From Acuticoccus mangrovi (GTDB lineage Bacteria; Pseudomonadota; Alphaproteobacteria; Rhizobiales; Amorphaceae): a stretch of 64,000 nt of DNA. Position numbers and translations under genes: made by a program. Of this stretch, positions 3,083-58,242 are shown piece by piece. Positions within the stretch are counted from its first letter, which is position 1. Each line of letters begins with the position of its first letter. Where the stretch lies: the NCBI RefSeq assembly GCF_016411865.1, contig NZ_JAEKJA010000021.1:62001-126000 (forward strand), given 5' to 3'. The notes below the pieces were generated by a model. That model was not told where the DNA came from, did no database searches, and saw only the letters and a program-made list of their open reading frames with translations.

Positions 3083-4096
3083 TCAGGCGAACGCCGCCGC
3101 GACGAGCGGGGCGATGTCGACGCTCTGCTGCGGCAGCGGCAGGCCGGCGACGGGAGCCGGCAGGCTCACGATGGCCTCGCCCGCGAGGCAGCCGAGAAAG
3201 ATCGTCCGGTGACCCTCGCCGCCGAAGGCGAGGTTGGAGATGTTCTTGAGGCGCCCGGCGTGGTGCGCGTCGAGCAGCTCCCGGGTGAGCGAGCCAGCGC
3301 CGTAGGCCCGCTCCATCACGGCGACATAGTCGTCGTCGCGGTCCTGCACCATCAGCGTGCGCGAGCCGTCGGGCAGCACCCGCAGCACGGTGTTGGACAC
3401 GATGGAGGTCACCCAGAGGCCGCCTTCGACGTCGAAGGCGAGGCCGTCGGGATAGATGCCGTCGCCGTAGCGGGCGACCACCTCGCGGGGGCCGAGGCTA
3501 CCATCGGGAGCGACGGCGAAGCGGCTCGTCTCGCGGCTGAACGTCTCGTTGACGTAGAGGTGGCGGCCGGCGGCGTCGAAGACGCACTCGTTGGTGTAGC
3601 CGAGCCCGTCGGCGACGATGCGCGGTTCGCCGTCGACCGGACAGAGCACGATGAAGCCGTCGCGCACGCCGGCATGGGCGGCGCGGTGGCGCGGCACGTG
3701 GCGGGTCGAGACGGTGACGTAGAGCCGGCCTTGCGGGTCCTTGGCGACGAAGTTGGTCGGCGGCAGCGGGGCGCCGTCCGCGGCGGTCAGCACCGGCTCG
3801 TCGCGACCGTCGGGGAAGAGGCGGTAGACGCCGCCGTCCTCGGCGCCGAGGTGGGTGAGAAGCACGCTGCCGCCCGCCTCCAGCATGATGCCGTTGGGCT
3901 TGAGGCCGGCGCCGGCGCGGCGGGCGAGGACGTGGCCGACGCGGCCGCTCGCGATCTCGACGACGGCGACGCCCCCTTCGTCCGTCCAGTCGGGCACGAC
4001 GATGCAGCCGCTATCGTGGACGACGACGCACTCGGGACGGTGAAGGCCCGCCCCATGGATCGACAAGGATTCGAGGGGTATGGTCGGTTGCGTCAT
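3083..4096 (-). CDS. SMP-30/gluconolactonase/LRE family protein
   Basis: A 337-aa beta-propeller lactonase-like protein. Characteristic segments are HRPECVVVHDSGCIVVPDW near residue 19, KPNGIMLEAGGSVLLTHLG, DGLGYTNECVFDAAGRHLYV and GDGIYPDGLAFDVEGGLWVT. The metal-binding E, N and D positions of the family are present. Such proteins hydrolyse sugar lactones or related esters and are usually soluble. It is divergent from the aldo/keto reductase across 46 bp, so the two may share control. A lactonase would suit the uronate pathway encoded at 8.7-14.4 kb, but the distance leaves that open. Confidence 0.8.
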   Translation of the reverse strand: MTQPTIPLESLSIHGAGLHRPECVVVHDSGCIVVPDWTDEGGVAVVEIASGRVGHVLARRAGAGLKPNGIMLEAGGSVLLTHLGAEDGGVYRLFPDGRDEPVLTAADGAPLPPTNFVAKDPQGRLYVTVSTRHVPRHRAAHAGVRDGFIVLCPVDGEPRIVADGLGYTNECVFDAAGRHLYVNETFSRETSRFAVAPDGSLGPREVVARYGDGIYPDGLAFDVEGGLWVTSIVSNTVLRVLPDGSRTLMVQDRDDDYVAVMERAYGAGSLTRELLDAHHAGRLKNISNLAFGGEGHRTIFLGCLAGEAIVSLPAPVAGLPLPQQSVDIAPLVAAAFA

Positions 4097-4142
4097 GACT
4101 CAGCGGTACGTCAGATATCGCCTTCATTAAAGCGGGGTAGGA

Positions 4143-5147
4143 ATGAGCGCAACGACACGTCTCGGCCGCAGCGGCCTCACTGTTTCGCGTCTCTGCCTGG
4201 GCACGATGACCTTCGGTGCCCGCACCGACGAGACCGAAGCGGCGCGCATCTACGCCCGCGCCCGCGAGGCGGGAATCAACTTCATCGACACCGCCGACAA
4301 CTATAATGGCGGCCGGTCCGAGGAGGTGACGGGCCGCGTCATCGGCGCCGACCGGGACAACGTCGTCCTCGCGAGCAAGGTGGCGACGCCTTCGAGCGGC
4401 GACCCCAACCATCGCGGCCTGTCGCGGTCGTGGATCATGCAGCAGGTGCCGCGCTCGCTGAAGCGTCTCGGCACCGACCGGCTCGACGTCCTCTATCTGC
4501 ACAAGGAGGACCCGAACACGCCGCTGGAGGAGACGGTGCGCACGCTCGAAGACCTCGTGCGCGGCGGCCTGGTGCGCCACATCGGCGTGTCGAACCACAA
4601 GGCGTGGCGGGTGGCGGAGCTGGTACGCTATTGCGACGAGGCGAACATCACTCGGCCGGTGGTGTGCCAGCCTTACTATCACGCGCTGAACCGGGTGATC
4701 GAGGTGGAGCTGCTGCCCGCCTGCGACGCGTTCGGCATCTCGGTGTTTCCCTATAGCCCGCTCGCCCGCGGCGTGCTGTCCGGCAAATATGCCGGCGACC
4801 AGCTGCCGGCGGACAGCCGCGCCGCCGTGTCGGACGCGCGCATCATGGAGACGGAGTTCAACCCCCTCACCATCGCCGCGGCCAACAAGGTGGTGGAGCG
4901 GGCGAGGGGGCTCGGCATCGACCCGCCAGCCTACGCCATCGCCTTCGTACTGGCGAACCCGATGGTGGCGGGCGCCGTGGTGGGCCCGCGCACGGTGGAG
5001 CAGCTCGAATCCTATCTCGGCGCCACCGACGTGGCGTGGAGCGCGGACGACGAAGCGGCGATCGACGCGCTGGTGTCACCGGGCTTCCACGCGGTGCCCA
5101 ACTTCGTCGATCCGCAATACCCGATCGAGGGCCGCCCCATGGGGTGA
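4143..5147 (+). CDS. Aldo/keto reductase
   Basis: A 334-aa (alpha/beta)8 NADPH-dependent oxidoreductase. The catalytic tetrad is visible: D49 and Y54 in NFIDTADNYNGGRSEE, K79 in VVLASKV and H120 in VLYLHKEDP. Cofactor-binding segments near the C-terminus include AIAFVLANPMVAGAVVGPRT. It starts MSATTRLGRSGLTVSRLCLG, with GGGTAGGA just upstream. The subfamily is that of YajO/IolS-like reductases, and the substrate is not evident. It stands alone, divergent from the SMP-30 gene and followed by a GST. Confidence 0.9.
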   Translation: MSATTRLGRSGLTVSRLCLGTMTFGARTDETEAARIYARAREAGINFIDTADNYNGGRSEEVTGRVIGADRDNVVLASKVATPSSGDPNHRGLSRSWIMQQVPRSLKRLGTDRLDVLYLHKEDPNTPLEETVRTLEDLVRGGLVRHIGVSNHKAWRVAELVRYCDEANITRPVVCQPYYHALNRVIEVELLPACDAFGISVFPYSPLARGVLSGKYAGDQLPADSRAAVSDARIMETEFNPLTIAAANKVVERARGLGIDPPAYAIAFVLANPMVAGAVVGPRTVEQLESYLGATDVAWSADDEAAIDALVSPGFHAVPNFVDPQYPIEGRPMG

Positions 5148-9470: not shown

Positions 9471-10910
9471 TCAAGCGAGCGAGTAGGCGGTCTTGACGGT
9501 GGTGTAGAATTCGGCCGCGTACCGGCCCTGCTCGCGCGGGCCGTAGCTCGACCCCTTGCGCCCGCCGAACGGCACGTGCGGATCGACGCCCGCGGTCGGC
9601 AGGTTGACCATCACCATCCCGGCCTCGGCGTTGCGCTTGAAGTGCGTCGCATATTTGAGGCTGGTGGTGCAGATGCCGGAGGAGAGGCCGAACGGGGTGT
9701 CGTTGGCGAGCGCCAGCGCCTCGTCGTAGTCCTTGGCGCGGATCACCGTCGCCACCGGGCCGAAGATCTCCTCGCGGTTGATCCGCATATCGTTGGTGGT
9801 CTCGGTGAAGAGGGCGGGCTGGAGGTAGAAGCCCGGCGTCGCCCGGTTGAGGAGCTCACCGCCCCAGGCGAGGTTGGCGCTGTCCTCGGAGCGGCCGATG
9901 TCGAGATATTTGAGGTCGGTGTCGAGCTGCTTCTGGTCGACGACGGGGCCGATGTGGGTGCCGTCCTTGCGTGCGTCGTCGACGGTGAGGGCCTTCAGCT
10001 TGTCGATCGTCGCGGCGACGAACTTGTCGTGGATGCCCTCGGTCACGATGAGGCGCGAGGAGGCGGTGCAGCGCTGGCCGGTGGAGAAGAAGGCGCCGTT
10101 GATCGCGCAGTCGACGGCGATGCCGAGGTCGGCGTCGTCGAGCACCACGAGGGGGTTCTTGCCGCCCATCTCGAGCTGCACCTTGCGCATATATTGGGCG
10201 CACTTCGCGGCGACGTGCTTGCCGGTGCCCACCGAGCCGGTGAAGGTCACGGCGTCGACGTCGGCCGAATCGAGGATCGCCTCGCCCACCACCGAGCCGC
10301 GGCCCATCACGAGGTTGAGGACGCCGTCGGGCAGGCCGGCGCGCTTCAGGATGTCGGCGATCGCCCAGGCGCACCCCGGCACGAGGTCGGCCGGCTTGAA
10401 GACGATGGTGTTGCCGTAGCAGAGCGCCGGCGCGATCTTCCACGCCGGAATGGCGATCGGGAAGTTCCACGGCGTGATGATGCCGACGACGCCCATCGGC
10501 TCGCGGGTGATCTCGATGCCCACGTTGGGGCGGATCGAGGGCAGCACGTCGCCCGCAAGGCGCAGCGTCTCGCCGGCGAAGAAGTCGAAGATCTGACCCG
10601 CACGCGCCGCCTCGCCGATGCCCTCGGCGAGCGTCTTGCCCTCCTCGCGGGCGAGGAGCTCGCCGAGCTCGGCCTTGCGCGCCATGATCTCGGCGGCCGC
10701 GGCCGACAGGATCGCGTGACGCTGCGCCGGGTTGGACCGCGCCCACGCCGGTGCGGCGGCCTTGGCGGCGGCGATCGCCTCGCGCGTCGCGGCCGCGTCG
10801 GCCCGGGCGTAGCGGCCGATCACATCGTTGGTGTCGGACGGGTTGATGTTGTCGCTGGCGTCTTCGCCGCCCGTCCATTCGCCGCCGATAAGGTTCTGAT
10901 GCAGATCCAT
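9471..10910 (-). CDS. Aldehyde dehydrogenase, probable 2-oxoglutarate semialdehyde (2,5-dioxovalerate) dehydrogenase
   Basis: A 479-aa NAD(P)-dependent dehydrogenase. Active-site residues are N149 (TPWNFP), K172 (VFKPAD), E247 (QLEMGGKNP) and nucleophile C281 (STGQRCTASS). The pattern resembles alpha-ketoglutaric semialdehyde dehydrogenases, which finish non-phosphorylative pentose and uronate pathways by making 2-oxoglutarate. AGGA lies six bases before the ATG. The neighbours (DapA-like dehydratase, uronate dehydrogenase, mutarotase) support that role; the exact aldehyde is inferred. Confidence 0.87.
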   Translation of the reverse strand: MDLHQNLIGGEWTGGEDASDNINPSDTNDVIGRYARADAAATREAIAAAKAAAPAWARSNPAQRHAILSAAAAEIMARKAELGELLAREEGKTLAEGIGEAARAGQIFDFFAGETLRLAGDVLPSIRPNVGIEITREPMGVVGIITPWNFPIAIPAWKIAPALCYGNTIVFKPADLVPGCAWAIADILKRAGLPDGVLNLVMGRGSVVGEAILDSADVDAVTFTGSVGTGKHVAAKCAQYMRKVQLEMGGKNPLVVLDDADLGIAVDCAINGAFFSTGQRCTASSRLIVTEGIHDKFVAATIDKLKALTVDDARKDGTHIGPVVDQKQLDTDLKYLDIGRSEDSANLAWGGELLNRATPGFYLQPALFTETTNDMRINREEIFGPVATVIRAKDYDEALALANDTPFGLSSGICTTSLKYATHFKRNAEAGMVMVNLPTAGVDPHVPFGGRKGSSYGPREQGRYAAEFYTTVKTAYSLA

Positions 10911-10918
10911 GATTGGTC

Positions 10919-11860
10919 CTATTCGGCCGCCTGGGCCGTCGGGTGGTTAGCGGAAAGGAGCGCCTTCGCCACGTCGCGCACGCGCGCCGCGTCGGCCGCT
11001 CCTAGGCGGGAAAGAAGTGGCAGCATCGGCCCGGTGGCGGCGATGCCGGCCTGGTCCACGGCCTCGTGGAGCACGCGGATCTGGCTGATCTCGTCGCGCA
11101 GGTCCTCGAGCGGGCGCAGGCGCTGCCAGATGGCGTCGGCCTCGTCGGGCCGGCCCGCCTCGAGCGCGGCCTTGAAGGCGGTGGAGAGCGCCGGCGCGAT
11201 CGACACAGAGCCCGAGGTGAAGCCGCGCAACCCCTTGCCCCATTGGGCGATCACCGGCCGCTCGCCCATGCCCGACACGATCCGGTCCGCCGACCCGACG
11301 GCGTCGAGCAGCGCGTCGAGGAAGGCGTCGTCGGCGGGGTCCGGCCGGTCGATGGCGTATTTGATGGCGGCGGCGGTTCCCTCGCGCAACAGCGCCGCGA
11401 CCGACGCGGGGCAGAGCGCCGCCTCGTTCTTCAGGTAGACGGTGAGGGGGCGGCCGAAGCGGGCCGCGGCGCGGCGGATGCCGTCGACGACGCCGTCCTC
11501 GGTGAACGGGAAGGGGCGGGCGACGGGCAGCACCATCGCGGTCGGGAAGGCGCGGGTGGACAGGATCGCCGCCTGATCCATCATGCGACCGAAGTCGGGG
11601 CCGATCGACGGGATCATCCAGGCGTCGGCCGGGGCGCTCTCCTCGATGGCGTCGAGGATCGCGCCGTAGTCGGCGACGCCGACATGGTAGAACGCCGCGT
11701 TGCCGCCATAGAGGATGCTGGTGACGCCGCCGGCCGTCAGATGGTCGTGCAGCCGCTTCATCTCGGCCGGAGCGGGTCGCAGCTCGGCATTGAGGCAGAG
11801 GGGTGGAACGGCAATCACGCTGCGGCGGAGCAACGCCGTGTCGACGACACCCTGATACAT
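10919..11860 (-). CDS. DapA/N-acetylneuraminate lyase family aldolase or dehydratase
   Basis: A 313-aa TIM-barrel enzyme starting MYQGVVDTALLRRS, with GGGAGGGAG upstream. YGGNAAFYHV near residue 51 replaces the usual GTTGE region, and the probable Schiff-base lysine is K167 in AAAIKYAIDR. The family contains dihydrodipicolinate synthase, 2-keto-3-deoxy-arabinonate dehydratase and 5-dehydro-4-deoxyglucarate dehydratase. The downstream semialdehyde dehydrogenase fits a dehydratase giving 2-oxoglutarate semialdehyde. The sequence departs from typical KdgD proteins, so the substrate stays open. The stop is 8 bp before the next ATG. Confidence 0.75.
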   Translation of the reverse strand: MYQGVVDTALLRRSVIAVPPLCLNAELRPAPAEMKRLHDHLTAGGVTSILYGGNAAFYHVGVADYGAILDAIEESAPADAWMIPSIGPDFGRMMDQAAILSTRAFPTAMVLPVARPFPFTEDGVVDGIRRAAARFGRPLTVYLKNEAALCPASVAALLREGTAAAIKYAIDRPDPADDAFLDALLDAVGSADRIVSGMGERPVIAQWGKGLRGFTSGSVSIAPALSTAFKAALEAGRPDEADAIWQRLRPLEDLRDEISQIRVLHEAVDQAGIAATGPMLPLLSRLGAADAARVRDVAKALLSANHPTAQAAE

Positions 11861-48177: not shown

Positions 48178-48254
48178 GCGCCGGTAGCTCAGCTGGATAG
48201 AGCACCAGACTACGAATCTGGGGGTCGGGGGTTCGAATCCTCCCCGGCGCGCCA
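48178..48254 (+). tRNA. tRNA-Arg (anticodon ACG)
   Basis: A 77-nt cloverleaf with acceptor GCGCCGG paired to CCGGCGC, D arm GCTCAGCTGGATAGAGC, anticodon arm CCAGA-CTACGAA-TCTGG (ACG), T arm GGGGGTTCGAATCCTCC, discriminator G and encoded CCA (48252-48254). It sits at the boundary between the catabolic cluster and the IS relic/CRISPR-Cas region, a position typical for integration sites. Confidence 0.96.
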
Positions 48255-48351: not shown

Positions 48352-48756
48352 TCATGCGCCTCGACGCTGACGTTTCTCGACCAGCTGGTCGAAGAGATGC
48401 CCGTCTCGATCCAGCGCATCCAGACCGGTCGCGGCCAGGAGTTCTTCGCCTACGCGGTTCAGGAGCGGCTTCGCTCGTGGAGCATCAGGTTCCGCCCGAT
48501 CCGCCCGCGGTCACCGCATTTCAACGGTAAGGTCGAACGGGTGCAACGGACCGCGCCCGACGAGTTCTGGCCGATGGTCGACCTCAAAGACCCGGAGCTC
48601 GAAGCGCGACTGGCGGAGTGGCAGCACGTCGACAACTGGGCGCGTCCGCACGACAGCCTCGGTGGCAGCGCTTCCACCGGCGAGGACATCGCTGCGTCGT
48701 ATGACCCGAACGCCGAGCCCATCCTGCCGCGCGACCACTGGCCGGCGCGACGCTGA
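48352..48756 (+). pseudogene. IS481-like transposase, truncated C-terminal remnant
   Basis: The frame reads TFLDQLVEEMPVSIQRIQTG, then RGQEFFAYAVQERLRSWSIR, SPHFNGKVERVQRTAPDEFW and PHDSLGGSASTGED. This is the end of an rve integrase-core transposase of the IS481 type (HFNGKVERVQRT with the catalytic Glu). The N-terminal helix-turn-helix and the first catalytic aspartates are missing; upstream bases do not continue the frame cleanly. About 120 codons from the ATG at 48397 remain. It is a decayed copy between tRNA-Arg and cas3. Confidence 0.8.
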
Positions 48757-49038
48757 CGAGTGAAACGATGTCAGCAGATCCCACACTCCACAGTTGAAGC
48801 TAGCAGCGCAGAGCGAATTGTGGCGATCGCGAAGCGGTTTTAGACAAGGAATTACCGCGAAGAAATTCAACTACTTGAGGTGGCGTTAGCGTCTATCCAA
48901 AACGCACGGCAACGACTGCTACGGGCGGCTCGGCACGCGATATCCGCCCAAGCCGACTATCAGGACGATCGCGGGTCGGCGCCCAAACGGCTCGCCGAGA
49001 CCGTTTTTCGCTGGCATCGTTCGCTTTTGGGAATTCCG
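48757..49038. other. Region upstream of cas3
   Basis: About 280 bp between the transposase remnant and the cas3 start. An open frame continues upstream from cas3 (from 48880) but its translation lacks family similarity, so it is taken as leader. The cas operon promoter should lie here; AT-richer sequence is present around 48810-48890 but no clear -35/-10 pair was settled. Confidence 0.4.
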
Positions 49039-51273
49039 ATGTTTTATGCGCACTCGACTGACCGATCGGATCGCACGGACTGGCAAACACTTCAGCAACA
49101 CCTCGAAGCGGTCTCCGAGGATGCCGCGCGGCGCGGCGAGCCGCTAGGGATCGCGCCAGCAGCCCGGCTCGCTGGCCTACTGCATGATCTCGGTAAGTAT
49201 ACGCCCGCCTTCCAGGCACGGCTCGCCGGTGCCTCGGAACGAGTCGACCACTCGACGGCGGGGGCGGCCGTGGCCCTTGGGCTCGCCGCAACGGGGGACG
49301 ACCGGTATGTTGCCGAGCTTGTCGCCCACGCCATCGCCGGTCATCACGCCGGACTGCCCGATCGGATCGGCCAAGGCGCGCTCGATGATCGGTTGAAGAT
49401 GTTCGACCCGACGTCGCTCGCCCCGATGTGGCGTGACGAGATCGTGCCGGAGGCGAAGGGGCTGATGCCCACCCTCGACTGGGGTGTTGGCAAGGAGAGC
49501 TTCCTGTTCCGCTTTGCTCTTCTCGGGCGAATGATCTTCTCTTGCCTTGTGGATGCCGACTATCGCGACACGGAGGCCTTCTACGGCACCGTGCCGGCAG
49601 CGCGGCGCGAGCAGCCGCCGCTCGCCGAGCATCTTCCGGGCTTTCTCGAGCAGCTGAAGAAGCATCTGGCGGCCCTTTCCGGCGAGGGAGCCGTCAACTG
49701 CCTGCGCGGCGAGATCCTCCAGCACGTCCGCGAGCGGGCGGTGGAGGCGCCGGGGCTCTTCACGCTCACCGTGCCGACAGGCGGCGGCAAGACGCTCGCC
49801 TCGCTCGCCTTCGCGCTCGACCATGCCAACCGGCATGACCTGCGTCGCATCATCGTCGCCATCCCCTTTACGTCGGTCGTTGACCAGACCGCCGCTCTTC
49901 TGCGCGGTATTCTCGGCGCCGAGACCGTTTTGGAGCACCACGGCGCCATCGAAGTGGAGGGGCGGTCGAGCGACGCCGATAGCGGGGCAGACAAATTGCG
50001 CCTCGCCATGGAGGACTGGTCGGCACCCGTCGTGGTGACGACGCATGTGCAGCTCTTCGAGAGCCTCTTTGCCGCACGACCCTCACGCTGCCGCAAGCTG
50101 CACAACATTGCCGGCAGCGTCATCGTGCTCGACGAGGCGCAAACGCTGCCACGCCACCTCCTTGCACCGACGGTGCGGATGATCGACGCCCTCGCCGCCA
50201 ACTGGCGCACCTCGGTGGTGCTATGCACCGCCACCCAGCCCGCCTTCGACGCGGAGCGGCTGACGAAGGGGCACCCTTTGGCGCTGCCGCTCGCGGGGCG
50301 CGAACTTGCACCCGACCCGGCGCGGCTCGCCCGGGAGATGAAGCGGGTGCGCCTTCATTTTGGCGGTGCGATGGACGACACAGCCCTGGTGGGAGCGCTC
50401 GGCGAGACCGGGCAAGGCCTCGTCATCGTCAACAGCCGTGGGCATGCGCTGGCGCTCTACCGGGCCGCAGTCGCGGCCGGGCTCGACGGTATGGTTCACC
50501 TCACGACCAGGCAGTACGCAGCGCACCGGCGACGGATCCTCAAGGACGTTCGCGACCGGCTTGATGTGGGGGCGCCGTGTCGGGTGGTCGCGACGTCGCT
50601 GGTGGAGGCCGGCGTTGATCTCGACTTTCCGCGGGTCTGGCGCGCCGAGGCGGGGCTCGACCAGATCGCCCAGGCGGCGGGCCGCTGCAACCGCGAGGGG
50701 CGCCGGCCGGTGGAGGAGAGCATCGTCACGGTGTTCGAGGCGCCGAACAATCCGGCGCCGCCCGAGATCAAGGGCCTCGTCGGCGACCTCGCTCGCATGG
50801 CGCACAAGCATGACGACCTCCTCTCGCCAGATGCGATCACCGACTATTTCGGCGAAGTCTATTGGCGGCTCGACAGCGGCATCGACCGCGAGAGGATCTG
50901 CGACATGTTCCGGGCCGATGCCCGTGGCACGAACTTCGCGTACCGCAGCGCGGCCGAGGCTTATCGCATGATCGAGAGCGGAATGGTGCCGGTGATCGTG
51001 CCGCGCGAGACCGAGGCCGTGGCGGCCGTCGCCGACCTTGCGATTGCCGACGTGCCGTCCGGCCTTCTTGCGCGGCGGCTGCAGGCGCATCTCGTGCAGG
51101 TGCCACCGAAGGCACGGATTCGGCTCCTCGCCAACGGCCATGTCGCCTTCATCGCCCCCGAGATGCGCGGTGATCAGTTCGCCGTCCTACGCACGCTGTC
51201 GTTTTACGAGGAGGATATCGGGTTGGTGTGGGAGGACGCAGACTATCTCGAGGCGGAGAGCCTCTTGGTCTAA
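49039..51273 (+). CDS. cas3: CRISPR-associated nuclease/helicase Cas3 (type I-C)
   Basis: A 744-aa protein with an N-terminal HD nuclease (H5 in MFYAHST; H49-D50 in LAGLLHDLGKYTPAFQ; HSTAGA; AGHHAGLP) and an SF2 helicase. Walker A is PTGGGKT (246-252), the DEAQ box is at 365-368 (VIVLDEAQTLPRHLL), and motif VI is in QIAQAAGRCNREG. It degrades target DNA after Cascade binding. The start at MFYAH puts the HD motif where Cas3 proteins have it. It is first in the cas operon, 73 bp before cas5c. Confidence 0.95.
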   Translation: MFYAHSTDRSDRTDWQTLQQHLEAVSEDAARRGEPLGIAPAARLAGLLHDLGKYTPAFQARLAGASERVDHSTAGAAVALGLAATGDDRYVAELVAHAIAGHHAGLPDRIGQGALDDRLKMFDPTSLAPMWRDEIVPEAKGLMPTLDWGVGKESFLFRFALLGRMIFSCLVDADYRDTEAFYGTVPAARREQPPLAEHLPGFLEQLKKHLAALSGEGAVNCLRGEILQHVRERAVEAPGLFTLTVPTGGGKTLASLAFALDHANRHDLRRIIVAIPFTSVVDQTAALLRGILGAETVLEHHGAIEVEGRSSDADSGADKLRLAMEDWSAPVVVTTHVQLFESLFAARPSRCRKLHNIAGSVIVLDEAQTLPRHLLAPTVRMIDALAANWRTSVVLCTATQPAFDAERLTKGHPLALPLAGRELAPDPARLAREMKRVRLHFGGAMDDTALVGALGETGQGLVIVNSRGHALALYRAAVAAGLDGMVHLTTRQYAAHRRRILKDVRDRLDVGAPCRVVATSLVEAGVDLDFPRVWRAEAGLDQIAQAAGRCNREGRRPVEESIVTVFEAPNNPAPPEIKGLVGDLARMAHKHDDLLSPDAITDYFGEVYWRLDSGIDRERICDMFRADARGTNFAYRSAAEAYRMIESGMVPVIVPRETEAVAAVADLAIADVPSGLLARRLQAHLVQVPPKARIRLLANGHVAFIAPEMRGDQFAVLRTLSFYEEDIGLVWEDADYLEAESLLV

Positions 51274-51346: not shown

Positions 51347-52036
51347 ATGACCTACGGTATTCACCTTCACGTCAGCGGGCCTTTTGCCTGCTTTACCCGC
51401 CCCGAGATGAAGGTCGAGCGGGTGTCCTACGACGTGATGACGCCGTCGGCAGCCCGCGGCATTCTGGAGGCGGTCCACTGGAAGCCAGCGATCCGTTGGG
51501 TGATCGACTCGATTCACGTCCTCAAACCGATCCGTTTTCAGTCGATCCGGCGCAACGAGGTCGGCGCCAAAGCTTCCTATGCCGCGGCGAAGAGCGCCAT
51601 GCGGCGTGGCGACGTGAACGGCCTCGCGCTGCGGATTGACGAGAACCGCCAGCAGCGCGCGTCCACCGTGCTCGTCGACGTCGCCTACGTCATCGAGGCG
51701 CACTTCGAGATGACGGCGAAGGCGGGGCCGGACGACAACCCGGCCAAGCACTTCGACATGTTCAACCGCCGTGCCGCGCGCGGCCAGGCGTTCGTGCAGC
51801 CGGTGCTCGGCACCCGCGAGTTCGACGCGCGCTTCACCCTGGTGCCGCAGGGAACGCCGACACCGGTGCCGGAGGAGACCGAAGGCCTCGGCTTCGACGC
51901 GCCGCGGGATCTCGGCTTCATGCTCTGGGACGTCGATCATGACACTCCCGGCAAACCCTCCATGTTCTTTCGCGCCACACTCACCAATGGGGTGTTGATG
52001 GTGCCGCAACCGGGTTCCCCGGAGATTCTCAAGTGA
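51347..52036 (+). CDS. cas5c: Type I-C Cascade subunit Cas5c (Cas5d), pre-crRNA processing
   Basis: A 229-aa protein with the Cas5d opening YGIHLHVSGPFACFTRPEMK and VERVSYDVMTPSAARGILEA. The family's KPIRFQSIRRNEV and central QRASTVLVDVAYVIEAHFE follow, as does FVQPVLGTREFDARF. In type I-C, which lacks Cas6, Cas5c cuts the repeat RNA; no cas6 is present here, in agreement. The stop overlaps cas8c (GTGA). Confidence 0.95.
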   Translation: MTYGIHLHVSGPFACFTRPEMKVERVSYDVMTPSAARGILEAVHWKPAIRWVIDSIHVLKPIRFQSIRRNEVGAKASYAAAKSAMRRGDVNGLALRIDENRQQRASTVLVDVAYVIEAHFEMTAKAGPDDNPAKHFDMFNRRAARGQAFVQPVLGTREFDARFTLVPQGTPTPVPEETEGLGFDAPRDLGFMLWDVDHDTPGKPSMFFRATLTNGVLMVPQPGSPEILK

Positions 52037-53763
52037 CGATCCTGTCGGCCCTCGCCGCAGCGACGCTGCCGGACGCGCCACCGGAGGGCTATGCGGAAGG
52101 GAAGGTCTCGATTCTCGTCTCGCTCGAGCCGGACGGCCGTGTGGCGAACGTTGCGGATCTGCGCATCCCGCGCGGCAAGAAGCTCACTCCGACGACCATG
52201 ATGGTGCCGGCGCCGGTGAAACGCACCTCCGGGATCGCGCCGAACTTTCTGTGGGACAAGACCGCCTATGCGCTCGGCGTGACGGCCGGAGCCGGCAAGC
52301 GAACCGCCGAGGAGCACGCCGCCTTCGTCGCGCGCCACGAGGAATGGCTCGCCGGCACGAACGACGAAGGTCTCGTGGCGTTCCTCGCCTTCCTGAGGGA
52401 CTGGTCGCCCGAGCGCTTTTCCACCCCCGAATGGCCAGTGGAGGCGATCGACGACAACGTCGTCTTCTGCCTCGAGAGCGAACGCCGCGCCGGCGTTCGC
52501 TTGCACGACCGTCCCGCCGCGAGAGCACTCTGGGCACGCCTCGGCGCGAAGGACCCGGCAAGCGACATCGTCTGCCTTGTCACCGGCGAGAGAGGTCCGC
52601 TCGCGGAGCTCCACCCGTCCATCAAGGGCGTTTGGGGTGGGCAGACGGCGGGTGGCTCGATCGTCTCGTTCAACCAGGACGCGTTCACCTCCTACGGCCA
52701 CGAGCAGGGAGCGAACGCACCCGTCTCTCAGGCAGCGGCGCTCGCCTACACCGGGGTGCTCAATCGGTTCCTCGCCCCCGGCAGCGGGCACCGCGTGCAG
52801 ATCGGCGACGCCTCCACGGTCTTCTGGGCCGAGGCGGCAGACGCGGCGGTCGCCGAGACTGCAGCAGGGGTGTTCAGCCAAGCCTTCGGCAACACGATCG
52901 ACAGCGAGATCGAGGCCGCCCGGGTCGGCGCCGTGCTCGAGGCGATCCATCGCGGCAGGCCACTCGTCGAGGCCGCGCCGGATCTCGCTGAAGGGGTGCG
53001 CTTCTACGTCCTCGGCCTTGCGCCAAACGCGGCGCGGATCTCGATCCGCTTCTGGCTGGAGGACGACTTCGCCACGCTGATGCATCACTACGGCCGCTTC
53101 GCCGAAGACATCCGCATCGAGCCCGCTCCGCGCGACGGGGTTCCCCCGCTGTGGCGCTATCTCCTGGAACTCGCGCCCCAGGGCAAGCGCGAGAATGTGC
53201 CGCCGAACCTCGCCGGCGAGGTGATGCGCGCGATCCTCACCGGCGCCCGCTACCCACAATCGCTCCTCGCCGCGACGCTAATGCGCATCCGTGCCGACCG
53301 CCGCGTCGGCCCGCTGCGCGCCGGGCTCGTCAAGGCGCTTCTCGCCCGCAACCATTCTGGGAGGCCACCCGTGGCGCGCGACGTCGACAACCCTTCCGCA
53401 GCCTACCAACTCGGCCGGCTCTTCGCCGTGATGGAAGCCGCACAATATGCCGCGCTCGGCCGGGTCAACGCCCCGATCGGCGACCGCTACTACGCCGCCG
53501 CTTCCTCGACCCCTGCCCGCGTCTTTGCCGCCCTGATGCGGGGCCTCAAGACCCACGTCTCGGATGCCCGCAAGCGTGGTCGCGGCGGCTGGATCGAGCC
53601 GCGAGTTGAGGAAATCGTCAGCAAGCTCGAACCAGATCTGCCGAAGACGCTGTGCCTCGAGGACCAGGGCCGCTTCGCTCTCGGCTACTACCACGAGAAG
53701 TCATACCGGCCGCCCGAGACGGTGGTTGAGGACAAGACGCCCGCTGAAGGAGACGCCGAATGA
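52033..53763 (+). CDS. cas8c: Type I-C Cascade large subunit Cas8c (Csd1)
   Basis: A 576-aa protein with Csd1 landmarks: VSILVSLEPDGRVANVADLR, PNFLWDKTAYALGVTAGAGK, HAAFVARHEEWLAG, GGSIVSFNQDAFTSYGHEQG, and later RISIRFWLEDDFATLMHHYG and SAAYQLGRLFAVMEAAQYAA. It recognises the PAM and recruits Cas3. The start is GTG overlapping cas5c. The stop overlaps cas7c (ATGA). Confidence 0.95.
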   Translation: MTILSALAAATLPDAPPEGYAEGKVSILVSLEPDGRVANVADLRIPRGKKLTPTTMMVPAPVKRTSGIAPNFLWDKTAYALGVTAGAGKRTAEEHAAFVARHEEWLAGTNDEGLVAFLAFLRDWSPERFSTPEWPVEAIDDNVVFCLESERRAGVRLHDRPAARALWARLGAKDPASDIVCLVTGERGPLAELHPSIKGVWGGQTAGGSIVSFNQDAFTSYGHEQGANAPVSQAAALAYTGVLNRFLAPGSGHRVQIGDASTVFWAEAADAAVAETAAGVFSQAFGNTIDSEIEAARVGAVLEAIHRGRPLVEAAPDLAEGVRFYVLGLAPNAARISIRFWLEDDFATLMHHYGRFAEDIRIEPAPRDGVPPLWRYLLELAPQGKRENVPPNLAGEVMRAILTGARYPQSLLAATLMRIRADRRVGPLRAGLVKALLARNHSGRPPVARDVDNPSAAYQLGRLFAVMEAAQYAALGRVNAPIGDRYYAAASSTPARVFAALMRGLKTHVSDARKRGRGGWIEPRVEEIVSKLEPDLPKTLCLEDQGRFALGYYHEKSYRPPETVVEDKTPAEGDAE

Positions 53764-54725
53764 CCAAGGGCACCCCGATCGCCAATCGCCACGACATCGT
53801 CGTTTTGTTTGAGGTGGTGAACGGCAATCCCAACGGCGATCCCGACGCCGGCAACATGCCGCGCATGGACCCTGAGACCGGCCACGGCCTCGTCAGCGAC
53901 GTGTCGCTGAAGCGCAAGATCCGCAACTACGTGGAGATGACCCGCGAAGGCGTGCCGGGCGACCGCATCTACGTGACCGAGGGCGCCGTTCTCAACGAAA
54001 AGCACCGCGAGGCCTACCTCGCCAAACGGCCGGACGACGCCGGCGTCGCCAAGGCCTCCAAGCTCACGCCGAAGTCGGACGAGGAGGCGAAGGCGATCCG
54101 CGACTTCATGTGCGAGAATTTCTACGACATCCGTACTTTCGGCGGGGTTCTTTCCACCGGCATCAACGCCGGTCAGGTGCGCGGCCCCGTCCAGTTCGCC
54201 TTCGCCCGCTCGGCCGAGCCGATCCTGCCCCTCGAAGTCTCGATTACCCGCATGGCTGCGACGAACGAGCAGGAGAAGAAGCAGCGCGTCGAGGGTGAAA
54301 CCGAGGACGATTCCGAAAAGCGGGGCGACAAGCGCACTATGGGCCGTAAGCACATCGTTCCTTACGGCCTCTACCGGGCGCACGGCTTTGTGTCCGCTAA
54401 GGTCGCGGAGAAGACTGGTTTCTCCGAGGAGGACCTCGACCTTCTCCTCGCCGCATTGGAAGAGATGTTCGAGCATGACCATTCGGCCGCGCGCGGGGAG
54501 ATGGCGACGCGCAAGCTGATCATCTTCCGCCACGACAACGCCCTCGGTCGCGCCCCGGCGCACGCGCTCTTCGACCGCATTCGCATCGGCCGGGCCGTCG
54601 ACGGCGAATTCCGCGAGATCGATGCGCGGCTCGACAATCTCGCCCCGGCGCGCTCCTTCACGGACTACGCCGTCACGATCGACCGGGAGGGTCTGCCACA
54701 GGGCATAGAGATCATCGAGAGGTAG
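53760..54725 (+). CDS. cas7c: Type I-C Cascade backbone subunit Cas7c (Csd2)
   Basis: A 321-aa RAMP protein starting MTKGTPIANRHDIVVLFEV. It shows NGNPNGDPDAGNMPRMDPET, GLVSDVSLKRKIRNYVE, FYDIRTFGGVLSTGINAGQV and RGPVQFAFARSAEPILPLEV, all typical of Csd2. It polymerises along the crRNA spacer. It overlaps cas8c by 4 nt and is followed 2 bp later by a small GIY-YIG-like gene rather than directly by cas4. Confidence 0.95.
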   Translation: MTKGTPIANRHDIVVLFEVVNGNPNGDPDAGNMPRMDPETGHGLVSDVSLKRKIRNYVEMTREGVPGDRIYVTEGAVLNEKHREAYLAKRPDDAGVAKASKLTPKSDEEAKAIRDFMCENFYDIRTFGGVLSTGINAGQVRGPVQFAFARSAEPILPLEVSITRMAATNEQEKKQRVEGETEDDSEKRGDKRTMGRKHIVPYGLYRAHGFVSAKVAEKTGFSEEDLDLLLAALEEMFEHDHSAARGEMATRKLIIFRHDNALGRAPAHALFDRIRIGRAVDGEFREIDARLDNLAPARSFTDYAVTIDREGLPQGIEIIER

Positions 54726-54727
54726 AG

Positions 54728-55015
54728 GTGCCGACGATCTATCGCATCACCTATCCGAACGGAAAGATCTATGTCGGCAAGGACCTCACCGACACGCTGA
54801 CCTATTTCGGCAGCCCGAACGCGGCGCTTGTCAGCGCCGACTTCCCGCCGCCGGATCGCGTCTCGTTCACGCTCACAAAGGACATCCTCTGGCGCTCGGA
54901 CATTGCGAGCCCGCGCGAGGTCGCCGCGCAGGAAGTCGGCTTCATACGCACGCTTTGCGCCAACAACCCGGCCATCGGCTACAATCGCTGGCCGAGGTTC
55001 GCCGCGTGGTCCTGA
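54728..55015 (+). CDS. Small GIY-YIG nuclease-like protein inside the cas operon
   Basis: A 95-aa protein starting at a GTG with GAGAGG nearby, 2 bp after cas7c. It reads IYRITYPNGKIYVGKDLTDT (residues 4-23), which matches the GIY...YIG two-strand motif as IYRI/KIYVG (Y5, Y15, G17). A helix with E69 (EVAAQEVGFIRTL) follows, then the closing IGYNRWP with N86, as in GIY-YIG folds where the Glu binds metal. The usual Arg after YIG is not obvious (R56 is a candidate). Its last 10 nt overlap cas4, so it is translated as part of the operon. The function is unknown. Confidence 0.75.
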   Translation: MPTIYRITYPNGKIYVGKDLTDTLTYFGSPNAALVSADFPPPDRVSFTLTKDILWRSDIASPREVAAQEVGFIRTLCANNPAIGYNRWPRFAAWS

Positions 55016-55668
55016 CGGCGAGCGCGGACGAGCGCGACACCGAGCCGATCCCGATCTCGGCCCTGCAGCACGTCGTCTACTGCCCGCGCCAGGCCGCACT
55101 GATCCACCTGGAGCGGATGTGGGCGGAAAACCTCCAAACCGCAGAGGGCCAAGTCGTCCACCTCGCCTCCGACCGGGGCGACAGGCGTCAGGCGCGGGGC
55201 GTGCGTCGCGTCCACGCGCTGCCACTCGCCTCCGCCCGGCTCGGCATTGCCGGGATCGCCGACCTCGTGGAGTTCATCGCAGGCCCAGACGGCGAGATCG
55301 CCTATCCCGTCGAGTACAAGCGCGGCAAGCCGAAGTCGCACAAGGCTGACGAGGTGCAGCTGTGTGCCCAGGCCCTCTGCCTCGAAGAGATGACCGGCCA
55401 TCCCGTCTCGGAGGGCGCCATCTACTATGCGACGACCCGCCGCCGTCTCGTCGTCGCCATCGACGACAGCTTGCGCAGGACGACCGAGGCCGCCATCGCG
55501 ACCCTCTCCGAGATTCTCGCTTCGGGCGTCACGCCGCCGCCGACGACCGAGAGAACCCGCTGTCGCGCCTGCTCCCTCGCCGAGTTGTGCCGTCCCAAGG
55601 CGAGCATCAAAGACGCCGTAGGGTGGCGCGCACGGACGCTCGGCACCCTCCTCAAGGAGGAGCCATGA
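55006..55668 (+). CDS. cas4: CRISPR adaptation exonuclease Cas4
   Basis: A 220-aa RecB-like nuclease. The first iron-sulfur cysteine is in HVVYCPRQAALIHLERMW; the nuclease residues are in GIADLVEFI and YPVEYKRGKPKS; then QLCAQALCLEEM. The closing cysteines are in RCRACSLAELCRP. Cas4 trims prespacers with Cas1-Cas2 to fix PAM orientation. The GTG start lies within the GIY-YIG-like gene. The stop overlaps cas1 (ATGA). Confidence 0.93.
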   Translation: MVLTASADERDTEPIPISALQHVVYCPRQAALIHLERMWAENLQTAEGQVVHLASDRGDRRQARGVRRVHALPLASARLGIAGIADLVEFIAGPDGEIAYPVEYKRGKPKSHKADEVQLCAQALCLEEMTGHPVSEGAIYYATTRRRLVVAIDDSLRRTTEAAIATLSEILASGVTPPPTTERTRCRACSLAELCRPKASIKDAVGWRARTLGTLLKEEP

Positions 55669-56696
55669 AGAAGCTCCTTAACACGCTCTACGTCACCACG
55701 GAGGGTGCCGCTCTGCGCAAGGATGGCGAGAACGTCGTCGTCCTGCTTGACGGTGAGGAGCGTGTGCGTGTCCCCTTCCACATGCTCGCCGCCATTGTCG
55801 CGTTCGGGGCGATCGCTCTGACGCCGGCGCTGATCGGGGCTGCGGCCGCTGCCGGTATCACCATCACGCTGCTTGAGCGCTCCGGCCGTTTCCAGGCGCG
55901 CGTCGAGGGACCGATCGCCGGCAATGTTCTTCTGCGGCGCGCTCAGTACCGCGCGGCGGACGCGCCATCCGAGATCGTCCGCTCGCTGGTGCTCGGCAAG
56001 ATCGCGAACCAGCGGGCCGTGCTCATGCGCGCTTTGCGCGACTACGGCACGCCGCGCGAGGGCAAAATGGCCGAGGTGGAGAGCGTGGCGCGGCGCCTCG
56101 CGACGATCCTGCGTCGCGTCGAGAAATCCGCGGACACGACCGACCTCCTGCGCGGCGCGGAAGGGGAAGCGGCAGCGCTCTACTTTATGGTCTTCGGCCA
56201 TCTGATCCGTTCCGAAGCCGCCGAATTCCGCTGGACGGTCCGCTCGCGACGGCCGCCGCTCGATCCGCCGAACGCGCTTTTGTCGTTCCTCTATACCCTC
56301 CTCGTCCACGACTGCCGCGCGGCTTGCGAAACCGTCGGCCTCGATCCCGCCGTCGGCTTTCTACATCGCGACCGACCCGGCCGGCCGAGCCTCGCGCTCG
56401 ACCTCATGGAGGAGTTGCGTCCGGTTCTCGTCGATCGGCTCGTCCTGTCGCTCATCAACCGCCGACAGGTGATCCCGCGCGACTTCATCGCCGCCGAGAC
56501 CGGCGCGGTCACGCTGACGGACGATGCGCGGCGAACCGTGATCGCCGCGTGGCAGGAGCGGAAGAAGGAGGAGCGGTTGCACCCGTTCCTGGAGGAGGCC
56601 GTCCCGTTCGGTCTCGTCCCCTATGTTCAGGCCCAGATGCTCGCCAGGACCTTGAGAGGCGACCTTTCGGCCTACCCACCCTGGTTCTGGACCTGA
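55665..56696 (+). CDS. cas1: CRISPR integrase Cas1 (type I-C)
   Basis: A 343-aa protein starting [20 protein letters not shown]. The N-terminal beta domain is followed by the helical catalytic domain, with the metal-binding Glu in [14 protein letters not shown], His in [13 protein letters not shown] and Asp in [20 protein letters not shown] is typical of I-C Cas1. GGAGG precedes the ATG. The stop shares a base with the cas2 ATG (TGATG). Confidence 0.96.
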
Positions 56697-56986
56697 TGCT
56701 CGTCCTCGTCACCTACGACGTCGCCACGACGACGCCGGGCGGCGCCCGCCGCTTGCGCCGGATCGCGAAGGCGTGCCGGGACTTCGGCCAGCGCGTACAG
56801 CTTTCCGTGTTCGAGATCGACGTCGACCCGGCGCAGTGGGCCTTCCTCAAGTCTTGTCTGGAGGCGATCATCGATCCGTCCTGCGACAGCCTGCGCTACT
56901 ATTATCTCGGTGCCGAATGGAAGCGCCGTGTCGAGCACGTCGGCGCAAAGCCCGCGACCGACCTCGACGGTCCGCTCATCGTATGA
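56696..56986 (+). CDS. cas2: CRISPR adaptation protein Cas2
   Basis: A 96-aa ferredoxin-fold protein starting [20 protein letters not shown] with the conserved Asp in VTYDV (D8). [20 protein letters not shown] and [19 protein letters not shown] follow. It forms the Cas1-Cas2 integration complex. It is the last cas gene; the array begins 193 bp downstream. Confidence 0.96.
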
Positions 56987-57179
56987 TGGGGCTGTGCCCG
57001 ACGCGGTGCGAACCGCAAGCGTGCCGACATTCCCGGGAGGTTCGCAGATGGATCAACGCATTGGCGGAGAAAGACGTTTTCGCTGCTCGATGAAAGCCGA
57101 CTGTTGGCCTCGCGCGGTGTTCCGAAGCGTTCGCAATCCCGGACAGAATTGCCGTTGTGCTCAAGGTGCTTGATGATAG
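56987..57179 (+). promoter_or_regulatory. CRISPR leader region
   Basis: A 193-bp non-coding stretch between cas2 and the first repeat, on the side away from the degenerate terminal repeat. By position it is the leader holding the array promoter and the Cas1-Cas2 integration signals. It is not especially AT-rich, and no clear promoter pair could be fixed. Confidence 0.7.
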
Positions 57180-57741
57180 GCCGCCTCTCGCGCAGAGGCG
57201 TGGATCGAAACAACCAAGTCAGCGATGCCGCAGTCGCTGAGGGCGGGTCGCCTCTCGCGCAGAGGCGTGGATCGAAACATCGACGGCATCGCCCTCAGTG
57301 GCGATACCGACAGTCGCCTCTCGCGCAGAGGCGTGGATCGAAACGTCGCTGCCAATAAGGCCGAGGATTAACCTCCGGTCGCCTCTCGCGCAGAGGCGTG
57401 GATCGAAACGATAACCTCAACGTTTGTTGAGGCCGCTCCGTAAGTCGCCTCTCGCGCAGAGGCGTGGATCGAAACATTGCTCGCGATCTCCGTGATCGCG
57501 CTCTCAACGTCGCCTCTCGCGCAGAGGCGTGGATCGAAACGTCCCCTGGCCTTCGAGGTCATCGGGAGGGACGTGTCGCCTCTCGCGCAGAGGCGTGGAT
57601 CGAAACGACGAGGCTCGCGGTGAGGACGTGCAGGGCTCTCGTCGCCTCTCGCGCAGAGGCGTGGATCGAAACACCGATCCGTCCGGGGTGATCGTTGGTC
57701 TATGCGCCAGTCGCCTCTCGCGCAGGGGCGTGGATCGGAAA
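57180..57741 (+). CRISPR. Type I-C CRISPR array, 9 repeats and 8 spacers
   Basis: The 32-bp repeat begins GTCGCCTCTC and ends GTGGATCGAAAC, with the internal hairpin GCCTCT-CGCGC-AGAGGC; the GGATCGAAAC end is typical of type I-C. Repeats start at 57180, 57247, 57313, 57378, 57444, 57509, 57575, 57641 and 57710. Spacers are 33-37 bp. The leader-proximal repeat carries C for T at position 2. The last repeat is degenerate (AGGGG in the stem arm, changed 3' end), which marks the distal end and confirms transcription on the plus strand, away from cas2. Confidence 0.98.
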
Positions 57742-58242
57742 TCCAATTCTGCGGTCAGGGAGAGCCCATCTCGCAGTGTTAGCCGACCCGTGCAAAGGCG
57801 AAGGTCTTTCGATGCCTGTCACGGAGCACTAGGCGGAGGCGCCATTTGATAGGCGCCTCCCGGTCCGAGATCGGGAGGCGGGTGGTGCGGGCGTTGGACG
57901 TGACCCGGTTTCTCAATCGGCTTCGACGACGTGGAGGTCTTTCGCCGCACCATGTCGCAGCGCGAACGCGGCCGCAGGCTCGGACGAGCCGGTTGTCGGT
58001 ACTGCGCGGCAATCTCTCCATGACTGCCCGCTCAAATCGCAAAACGTGGCGTCGGGTCTCCTGGAGCCGTACCCGGACGCGCTGTTGCCCACATGACTGG
58101 ACATATCCGCTCTGCGCCTCAGATTGATGGGAGCCCGTGGGCTTGCCGTCGGCTCCGCTTCGTCCCGACCGGGGTGATGAGCCGGCCACGCGCCCGAGGG
58201 CTCGAACGAACGAGGGGCTTCAGAAGAGTGGCATCCGTCGCG
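57742..58242. other. About 500 bp without a recognisable gene
   Basis: This stretch between the array end and the AraC gene shows short open frames only, none with family motifs. No further repeat copies, terminator-like hairpin with T-run, or copy of the tRNA-Arg 3' end was seen. Confidence 0.5.

Follow-up and report, generated by a model that had tools for sequence, protein, structure and literature searches.

A mobile, single-domain gene of the GIY-YIG type, shared with phages, appears to ride in type I-C CRISPR-Cas operons and to be dispensable to them. This is the reading that we favor, with confidence somewhat better than even, for a 95-aa gene lodged between cas7c and cas4. The gene is not a fixed Cas component, since it is absent from most of the I-C operons viewed and some of its copies decay beside uninterrupted cas genes. 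Throughout, "the window" denotes the whole stretch of DNA that was analyzed, 64,000 nucleotides long. It holds a complete type I-C system, with Cas3, Cas5c, Cas8c, Cas7c, Cas1c and a CRISPR array all found, and the operon order is cas3-cas5c-cas8c-cas7c-nuclease gene-cas4-cas1c-cas2, followed by the array. All cas genes and the array are as usual for the type, and the operon differs by the guest between cas7c and cas4. The features are as follows.

48880..51273, + strand: cas3 (HD and helicase; Pfam/NCBIfam)
51347..52036, + strand: cas5c (TIGR01876)
52033..53763, + strand: cas8c, Csd1 (TIGR01863)
53760..54725, + strand: cas7c, Csd2 (TIGR02589)
54728..55015, + strand: nuclease gene, single-domain GIY-YIG-type, 95 aa, with Y5, Y15, E69 and N86 present
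55006..55668, + strand: cas4 (TIGR00372; the alignment of the L167 cas4 begins at residue 1)
55665..56696, + strand: cas1c (TIGR03640)
56696..56986, + strand: cas2 (putative, by reading frame; related I-C operons hold frames 59-82% identical to it)
57179..57754, + strand: CRISPR array, 9 repeats

The nuclease frame opens with GTG after a 2-nt spacer from the cas7c stop at 54725, and the GTG start of cas4 at 55006 lies inside its end, giving a 10-nt overlap, stop included. These coordinates bear out the original prediction, which had placed a 95-aa gene 2 bp after cas7c with cas4 starting within its last codons. A chance open reading frame was ruled out by the 272 conserved coding relatives found and by the residues invariant in 79 sequences. 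A protein search of the source genome recovered one copy of the gene, and searches of seven other genomes of the window's genus recovered none; the genus members within the order sample (G446 and G481) were without Cas8c.

The AlphaFold model of the protein forms one compact domain (mean pLDDT 93.9, pTM 0.85). Comparing it with a viral library by Foldseek returned 18 models at E <= 0.001, and every named one is a GIY-YIG, Seg-like or intron-associated endonuclease. The top match was a protein of mycobacteriophage Gaia (E 2.6e-9, TMq 0.83, 44% identity), and an intron-associated endonuclease in the same library matched with E 3.4e-5 and TMq 0.72. The window protein has the same fold as these and the Seg-type phage endonucleases, and the Gaia gene is homologous by sequence too; it differs from the phage GIY-YIG endonucleases in being 95 aa in all, with no further part, and in having no conserved arginine at the usual place. 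Against the PDB, the fold search gave no support (best E 0.97) and the sequence search found nothing convincing, the SegB chain that it returned (E 0.53) not being claimed as a relative. The window protein itself matched no family in Pfam, NCBIfam or PADLOC, with the GIY-YIG family PF01541 absent at E <= 1, but 24 of the 79 family members matched PF01541 weakly (best E 0.0024). In PHROGs, the only match was a weak one to a homing endonuclease (E 0.013, residues 1-18).

The 79-row alignment comprises the window protein and 78 of its 80 nearest relatives; L074 was left out for its in-frame stop and L065 for being the same protein as L063, while L023 and L076, whose frames run into another gene, were cut to 93 residues. 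By eye, the nuclease frame continues stop-free into an acetyltransferase-like frame in L023 (5001-5816) and into an oxidoreductase-like frame in L076 (4989-6305); natural fusions are possible. Invariant in all 79 sequences are Y5, T8, Y9, P10, N11, K13, Y15, G17, D19, Y26, D38, E69, N79, G84, N86 and P89. By comparison with I-TevI, Y5, Y15 and E69 are assigned to catalytic positions, within a Tyr/Tyr/Glu/Asn set that fits GIY-YIG. The GIY-YIG-type fold and the candidate catalytic Glu69 are thereby supported, and within the closing GYN of the original prediction G84 and N86 are constant. The catalytic arginine of the first helix, which we presume would fall near position 25, has no conserved counterpart there in the 79 sequences; Y26 is invariant at that place, and positions 6, 13 and 51 always, and position 44 commonly, carry a basic residue. 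Because no arginine is conserved at the usual place, the protein is termed "GIY-YIG-like", with an atypical site, and to judge from its conserved residues it is likely to have a putative DNA-cutting activity. A separate DNA-binding or target-recognition part, such as known homing enzymes carry, is absent from the 95-aa protein. The source genome also encodes a second GIY-YIG protein, found on another contig (L001) by a PF01541 search; HHalign gave no alignment between the family and the single L001 domain, the one domain compared.

Genome contigs yielded 272 coding relatives, and the best 80 of these are 49-66% identical to the window protein and, by their titles, come from many phyla. Searching with the window's Cas proteins (tblastn) placed four of the 80 inside I-C operons: at the cas7|cas4 junction in Natronohydrobacter (L006), Roseinatronobacter (L052) and a Chloroflexi MAG (L022), and at cas8|cas7 in Halomonas (L041). 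In L017, cas1/cas4-like genes lie about 3 kb from the nuclease gene. The other 75 had no cas gene in their stretch, which extended up to 5 kb per side and less on short contigs; several contigs are short, so that a cas locus farther off may have escaped notice. Homologues had been expected to be linked to cas loci, and most are not. The four I-C copies, two of them probably one insertion, compare with a rough expectation of about 0.01 for 80 random insertions, obtained by multiplying the share of phylum genomes with Cas8c (30/398) by 7 of about 4000 gene junctions, the latter assumed; the 80 were picked by likeness to an I-C copy, so that the I-C share is inflated.

We also approached the question from the side of the operons. 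A search for Cas8c (TIGR01863) recovered it from 13 of 385 genomes of the class, 14 of 150 of the order, 30 of 398 of the phylum and 19 of 149 of family f2 in the window's order, giving 68 different Cas8c genomes when the samples were pooled. The nuclease gene sits in the I-C locus of six (the window, G685, G883, G933, G956 and G924). This is a lower bound, because the operon region was viewed whole or mostly in 38 genomes and in the other 30 only partly (about 1.5 kb to either side of cas8c, some of these loci lying at contig ends), and because second Cas8c copies of G745 and G581 were left out. Apart from the window, all the carriers belong to family f2 (5 of its 19 I-C genomes) and hold the gene at cas3|cas5. 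The gene is rare altogether, being present in 4 of 385 class and 5 of 398 phylum genomes; two of these five phylum matches lie in I-C (the window and G685), and the other three have no I-C gene within about 1.5 kb. Similarly, 2 of 70 relatives of G685 carry it, both in I-C. Among 61 of the window's own relatives it was found in 2, one of these copies being a fragment. Regular linkage to cas loci was thus found neither among the 80 nearest relatives (4) nor among the 68 Cas8c genomes in the part viewed (6).

As the original prediction had it, standard I-C operons pass directly from cas7 to cas4. This holds for 41 of the 43 loci that lack the gene there and have both cas7 and cas4 in view, in which the estimated cas4 start lies -29 to +64 nt from the cas7 stop; the remaining two (L138 and L144) have a different insert of about 490-500 nt, and for nine further loci no cas4 was found in the stretch. 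By eye, the L138 insert (4096-4606, genome G551) holds two small frames like an antitoxin-toxin pair, and the L144 insert is like it in size and start. Inserts may also be present in L139 and L162, which begin like L138 after cas7c, and in L141, which begins differently; none of these three stretches yielded a cas4.

How the gene enters an operon could be seen in one pair of loci. The Halomonas operon L041 and the gene-free operon L143 of G860 are 82-86% identical at the DNA level in their flanks. In L143, the last 4 nt of cas8c are shared with cas7. At this spot L041 holds the nuclease frame alone, with a 4-nt overlap at either end, of its start with the stop of cas8c and of its stop with the start of cas7; the C-terminal residues of the nuclease resemble the former end of cas8c. 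No repeats or duplication were seen in the alignment. This one pair therefore shows a bare gene inserted into a gene-free allele, for which homing would be a possible cause. The window insertion is similar in style, with a 2-nt gap upstream and an overlap downstream.

To follow the gene and its host operons separately, we built a tree for each. On the gene tree, the seven I-C copies need five changes, of which at least four are forced by branches marked with an asterisk and any of which may be a loss rather than an entry. The I-C copies are clustered, none of 500 shuffles needing as few as five changes. The tree has 99 rows, rests on a short alignment and contains many weak forks; it was built without L074, L065, L102, L103, L121, L123 and L104 (the last having the protein and coordinates of L100) and without G883, G933, G956 and G924. 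L006/L052 join the viral copy L119 (99/83*), and the window copy groups with these three (97/79, just below the asterisk). The Halomonas copy L041 pairs with the viral copy L112 (99/82*), and the cas3|cas5 copies form a group (100/98*) with one from G260 that lies outside that genome's own I-C locus. On the tree of cas5 plus cas7 from 55 I-C loci, the window operon belongs to a 27-row clade (99/90*) made up largely of operons from its own order, and L006/L052 branch elsewhere. The cas7|cas4 junction would thus have been reached in unlike operons, by gene transfer or through many losses. Gene-free kin stand close to most carriers: L190 by L186, L193/L203 by L187, L143 by L041, L146 by L006/L052 and L207/L216 by the plasmid copy described below. 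Since three separate gene lineages occupy three different junctions, the gene apparently entered I-C operons at least three times, at cas7|cas4, cas8|cas7 and cas3|cas5.

Substitution patterns point to constraint on the protein, and several copies are broken. Between L006 and L052, both intact, the nuclease has dN 0.134 and dS 0.939 (dN/dS 0.14), next to 0.041/0.996 for cas7 and 0.139/0.795 for cas4, and the window compared with L006 gives 0.363/1.505, or 0.24. Six pairs of cas3|cas5 copies gave 0.08-0.15 and four could not be estimated; the sole pair with both copies intact, L167/L186, gave 0.08 at a saturated dS of 3.2, and the other values cover the readable part before the break. Judged by this dN/dS range of 0.08-0.24, the nuclease protein is under purifying selection. 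Three of the five chromosomal cas3|cas5 copies are broken, by frameshifts in G956 and G933 and by a stop and a frameshift in G924. Beside the broken gene, each of the seven cas matches is stop-free in both G933 and G924; G956 (L188, positions 10730-11165 of the stretch in operon orientation) yielded no cas1 and a cas4 match of only 55 aa, while the effector genes remain. Repeated homing into cas3|cas5 was our first idea for this group. As nuclease divergence there rises roughly with cas divergence, one old gain with later losses fits at least as well.

The original prediction had argued from the tight coupling that the gene shares the function of its operon, and from its place beside cas4-cas1-cas2 that it might trim prespacers, serve adaptation or add a nuclease step. 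In a broader form of this idea, I-C immunity would have recruited the gene as an accessory nuclease that works with the I-C proteins, say by trimming DNA that has been captured or by adding a cut to invaders, and would keep it for that benefit. We consider this unlikely, though it is kept in play by repeated entry into I-C above a rough chance estimate and by purifying selection. Apart from the cas1/cas4-like genes of L017, all cas operons recognized among the 80 relatives, with the window's own I-C proteins as queries and among the best 25 of 43 PADLOC families, are of type I-C. The apparent three or more entries, the excess over the chance estimate and the clustering on the gene tree speak for it too, as do the share of family f2 I-C operons that carry the gene and the two copies among the relatives of G685, both in I-C. 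However, few of the Cas8c genomes have the gene, and it occupies three different junctions. Most relatives have no cas neighbor even though the 80 were selected by likeness to an I-C copy, and in G933 and G924 the gene decays while the cas matches stay stop-free. The coupling itself stands, but the same gene couples likewise in other operons; a benefit to I-C is left possible by purifying selection and repeated entry. The argument for prespacer trimming lost its specific support, because the gene also lies at cas3|cas5 and cas8|cas7 in other I-C operons and so is not tied to cas4. Of the earlier interpretation as a whole, the fold and E69 survive, and the cas-linked role fits less well with a gene found mostly as an orphan and decaying in two genomes beside uninterrupted cas genes. 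A further possibility, doubtful in our estimation, would have a new kind of phage-shuttled, minimal one-domain GIY-YIG-type gene invade several junctions with a preference for I-C, as a bare frame that retains translational coupling, serve the host there as an extra nuclease linked to I-C, and then be lost, in a cycle of gain, use and decay.

The surroundings of the copies outside I-C are diverse. A total of 150 neighbor frames of the relatives matched 179 Pfam families, 164 of which occurred in a single frame; these tallies are approximate, as gene calls were crude (longest frames), and the L006 upstream and L052 downstream neighbors were taken from cas matches instead. The commonest were Cas7 (4), Mrr_cat (4) and, matching those same Mrr proteins, a model of an inactive nuclease (4), followed by Mrr_N (3) and DUF4357 (3). 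Some copies have metabolic neighbors, including histidine biosynthesis, aldehyde dehydrogenase and nitroreductase genes. For example, in Rhodopseudomonas (L007, 5001-5300) the gene lies between a hisH-like GATase gene and His_biosynth, with a 1-nt gap and a 4-nt overlap, and in Pseudolabrys (L026, 5001-5285) it occupies the same histidine operon setting with homologous flanks. Plasmids matched in six records, four of which had their surroundings viewed. One of these, from Rhizobium sp. Q54, carries a frameshifted copy in I-C at cas3|cas5; a sequencing error is possible, because cas3 and cas8c of this plasmid are likewise annotated in pieces. A Tistrella plasmid carries cas1-cas2 some 7 kb upstream of the nuclease gene.

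Viruses carry the gene as well. Three phage records, all Gaia-like, matched (surroundings viewed for one), together with 15 viral contigs, one very weakly. The gene lies between the large terminase and portal genes in L112, and antisense between terminase and portal in L119, where it is truncated before E69. A PAPS-reductase-like gene adjoins or lies near the nuclease gene in viruses L118 and L122 and mycobacteriophage Nebkiss (L108), and a ParB-like gene is directly beside it in L122 and Nebkiss.

These settings bear on a further alternative, that a phage-derived nuclease was domesticated for defense, cutting phage genomes that lack the gene (for instance between terminase and portal), protecting the host on its own and gathering in defense loci. 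The viral sisters of two I-C lineages do lie between terminase and portal, and Mrr-type restriction endonuclease genes are the nearest neighbors in 4 of 80 loci (downstream in L016, upstream in L019, L023 and L053). Published accounts offer a precedent in Odn, an anti-satellite nuclease of the GIY-YIG superfamily whose locus is held by CRISPR-Cas in other ICP1 phages (PMC11656645, PMC8263062). We nevertheless regard this alternative as improbable. Copies also sit in ordinary operons such as those for histidine synthesis, the protein has no targeting part, and the L119 copy stops short of E69. PADLOC family counts showed no preference for defense genes either: near frames matched 43 families, with Cas7c, type IV restriction and PDC models heading the best 25, and far frames (a control set of 150 of 169 frames) matched 109, where the best 25 are headed by Cas3 models that stem from these I-C loci and inflate the far count. 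Odn differs from the window protein in being a chimera with a DNA-recognizing part and in keeping the catalytic arginine (PMC11656645, PMC8263062). A chance passenger, transferred at random into I-C, expressed by accident and of no use, would account for the rare, patchy distribution, the broken copies and a cas7|cas4 junction that hosts other guests (L138, L144), but is highly improbable given that intact copies keep the putative catalytic residues under purifying selection and that I-C was entered repeatedly.

We therefore return to a mobile gene carried by I-C operons but dispensable to them, a reading that accounts for the orphan copies, the use of three junctions, the kinship with viral genes, the empty site and the decay. 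A widespread, free-standing GIY-YIG-type gene would travel between genomes and phages and lodge at operon junctions, having settled in I-C operons at least three times. The sequence of the one near-empty-site case shows entry as a bare frame between two overlapping genes, by which the gene borrows the operon's transcription and translation and leaves its neighbors readable. The putative nuclease would probably cut DNA by means of Y5, Y15, E69 and N86, presumably acting alone and outside the Cas4-Cas1-Cas2 step. Its spread would be explained most simply by homing-type copying, in which an allele or phage without the gene is cut and repaired from one that bears it. The lack of a DNA-binding part is the weak point of this step. 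Also weighing against the reading, purifying selection and a divergence that, among the cas3|cas5 copies, roughly tracks that of the cas genes point to long residence with use, I-C is over-represented relative to the rough chance rate, the gene tree shows clustering of the I-C copies, and the empty site comes from one pair only.

Related behavior is described for GIY-YIG-superfamily genes that settle next to essential genes, namely the nuclease Odn and, in ICP1-like phages, homing genes of the T5orf172 type (PMC10448857, PMC8263062, PMC11656645). The searches run here gave no link of the window protein to the T5orf172/Odn subfamily. Among the literature matches listed, no title described a GIY-YIG gene inside an I-C operon, most subscription papers lying outside the coverage of the searches.

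If a dispensable mobile gene is indeed what these operons carry, gene order within a cas operon does not prove that a gene has a Cas function, and a selfish or autonomous nuclease can appear fully integrated in an operon. Related genomes with empty, filled and decaying sites would also make this a tractable example of genes passing between phage and host into an immune operon, and the GIY-YIG-type protein, being very small, would lend itself to tests of cutting and mobility.

The I-C locus of the window may itself be an acquired island. A tRNA-Arg gene lies just upstream of it (48178-48254), followed by a frame (48397-48756) that, by eye, resembles the end of a transposase.
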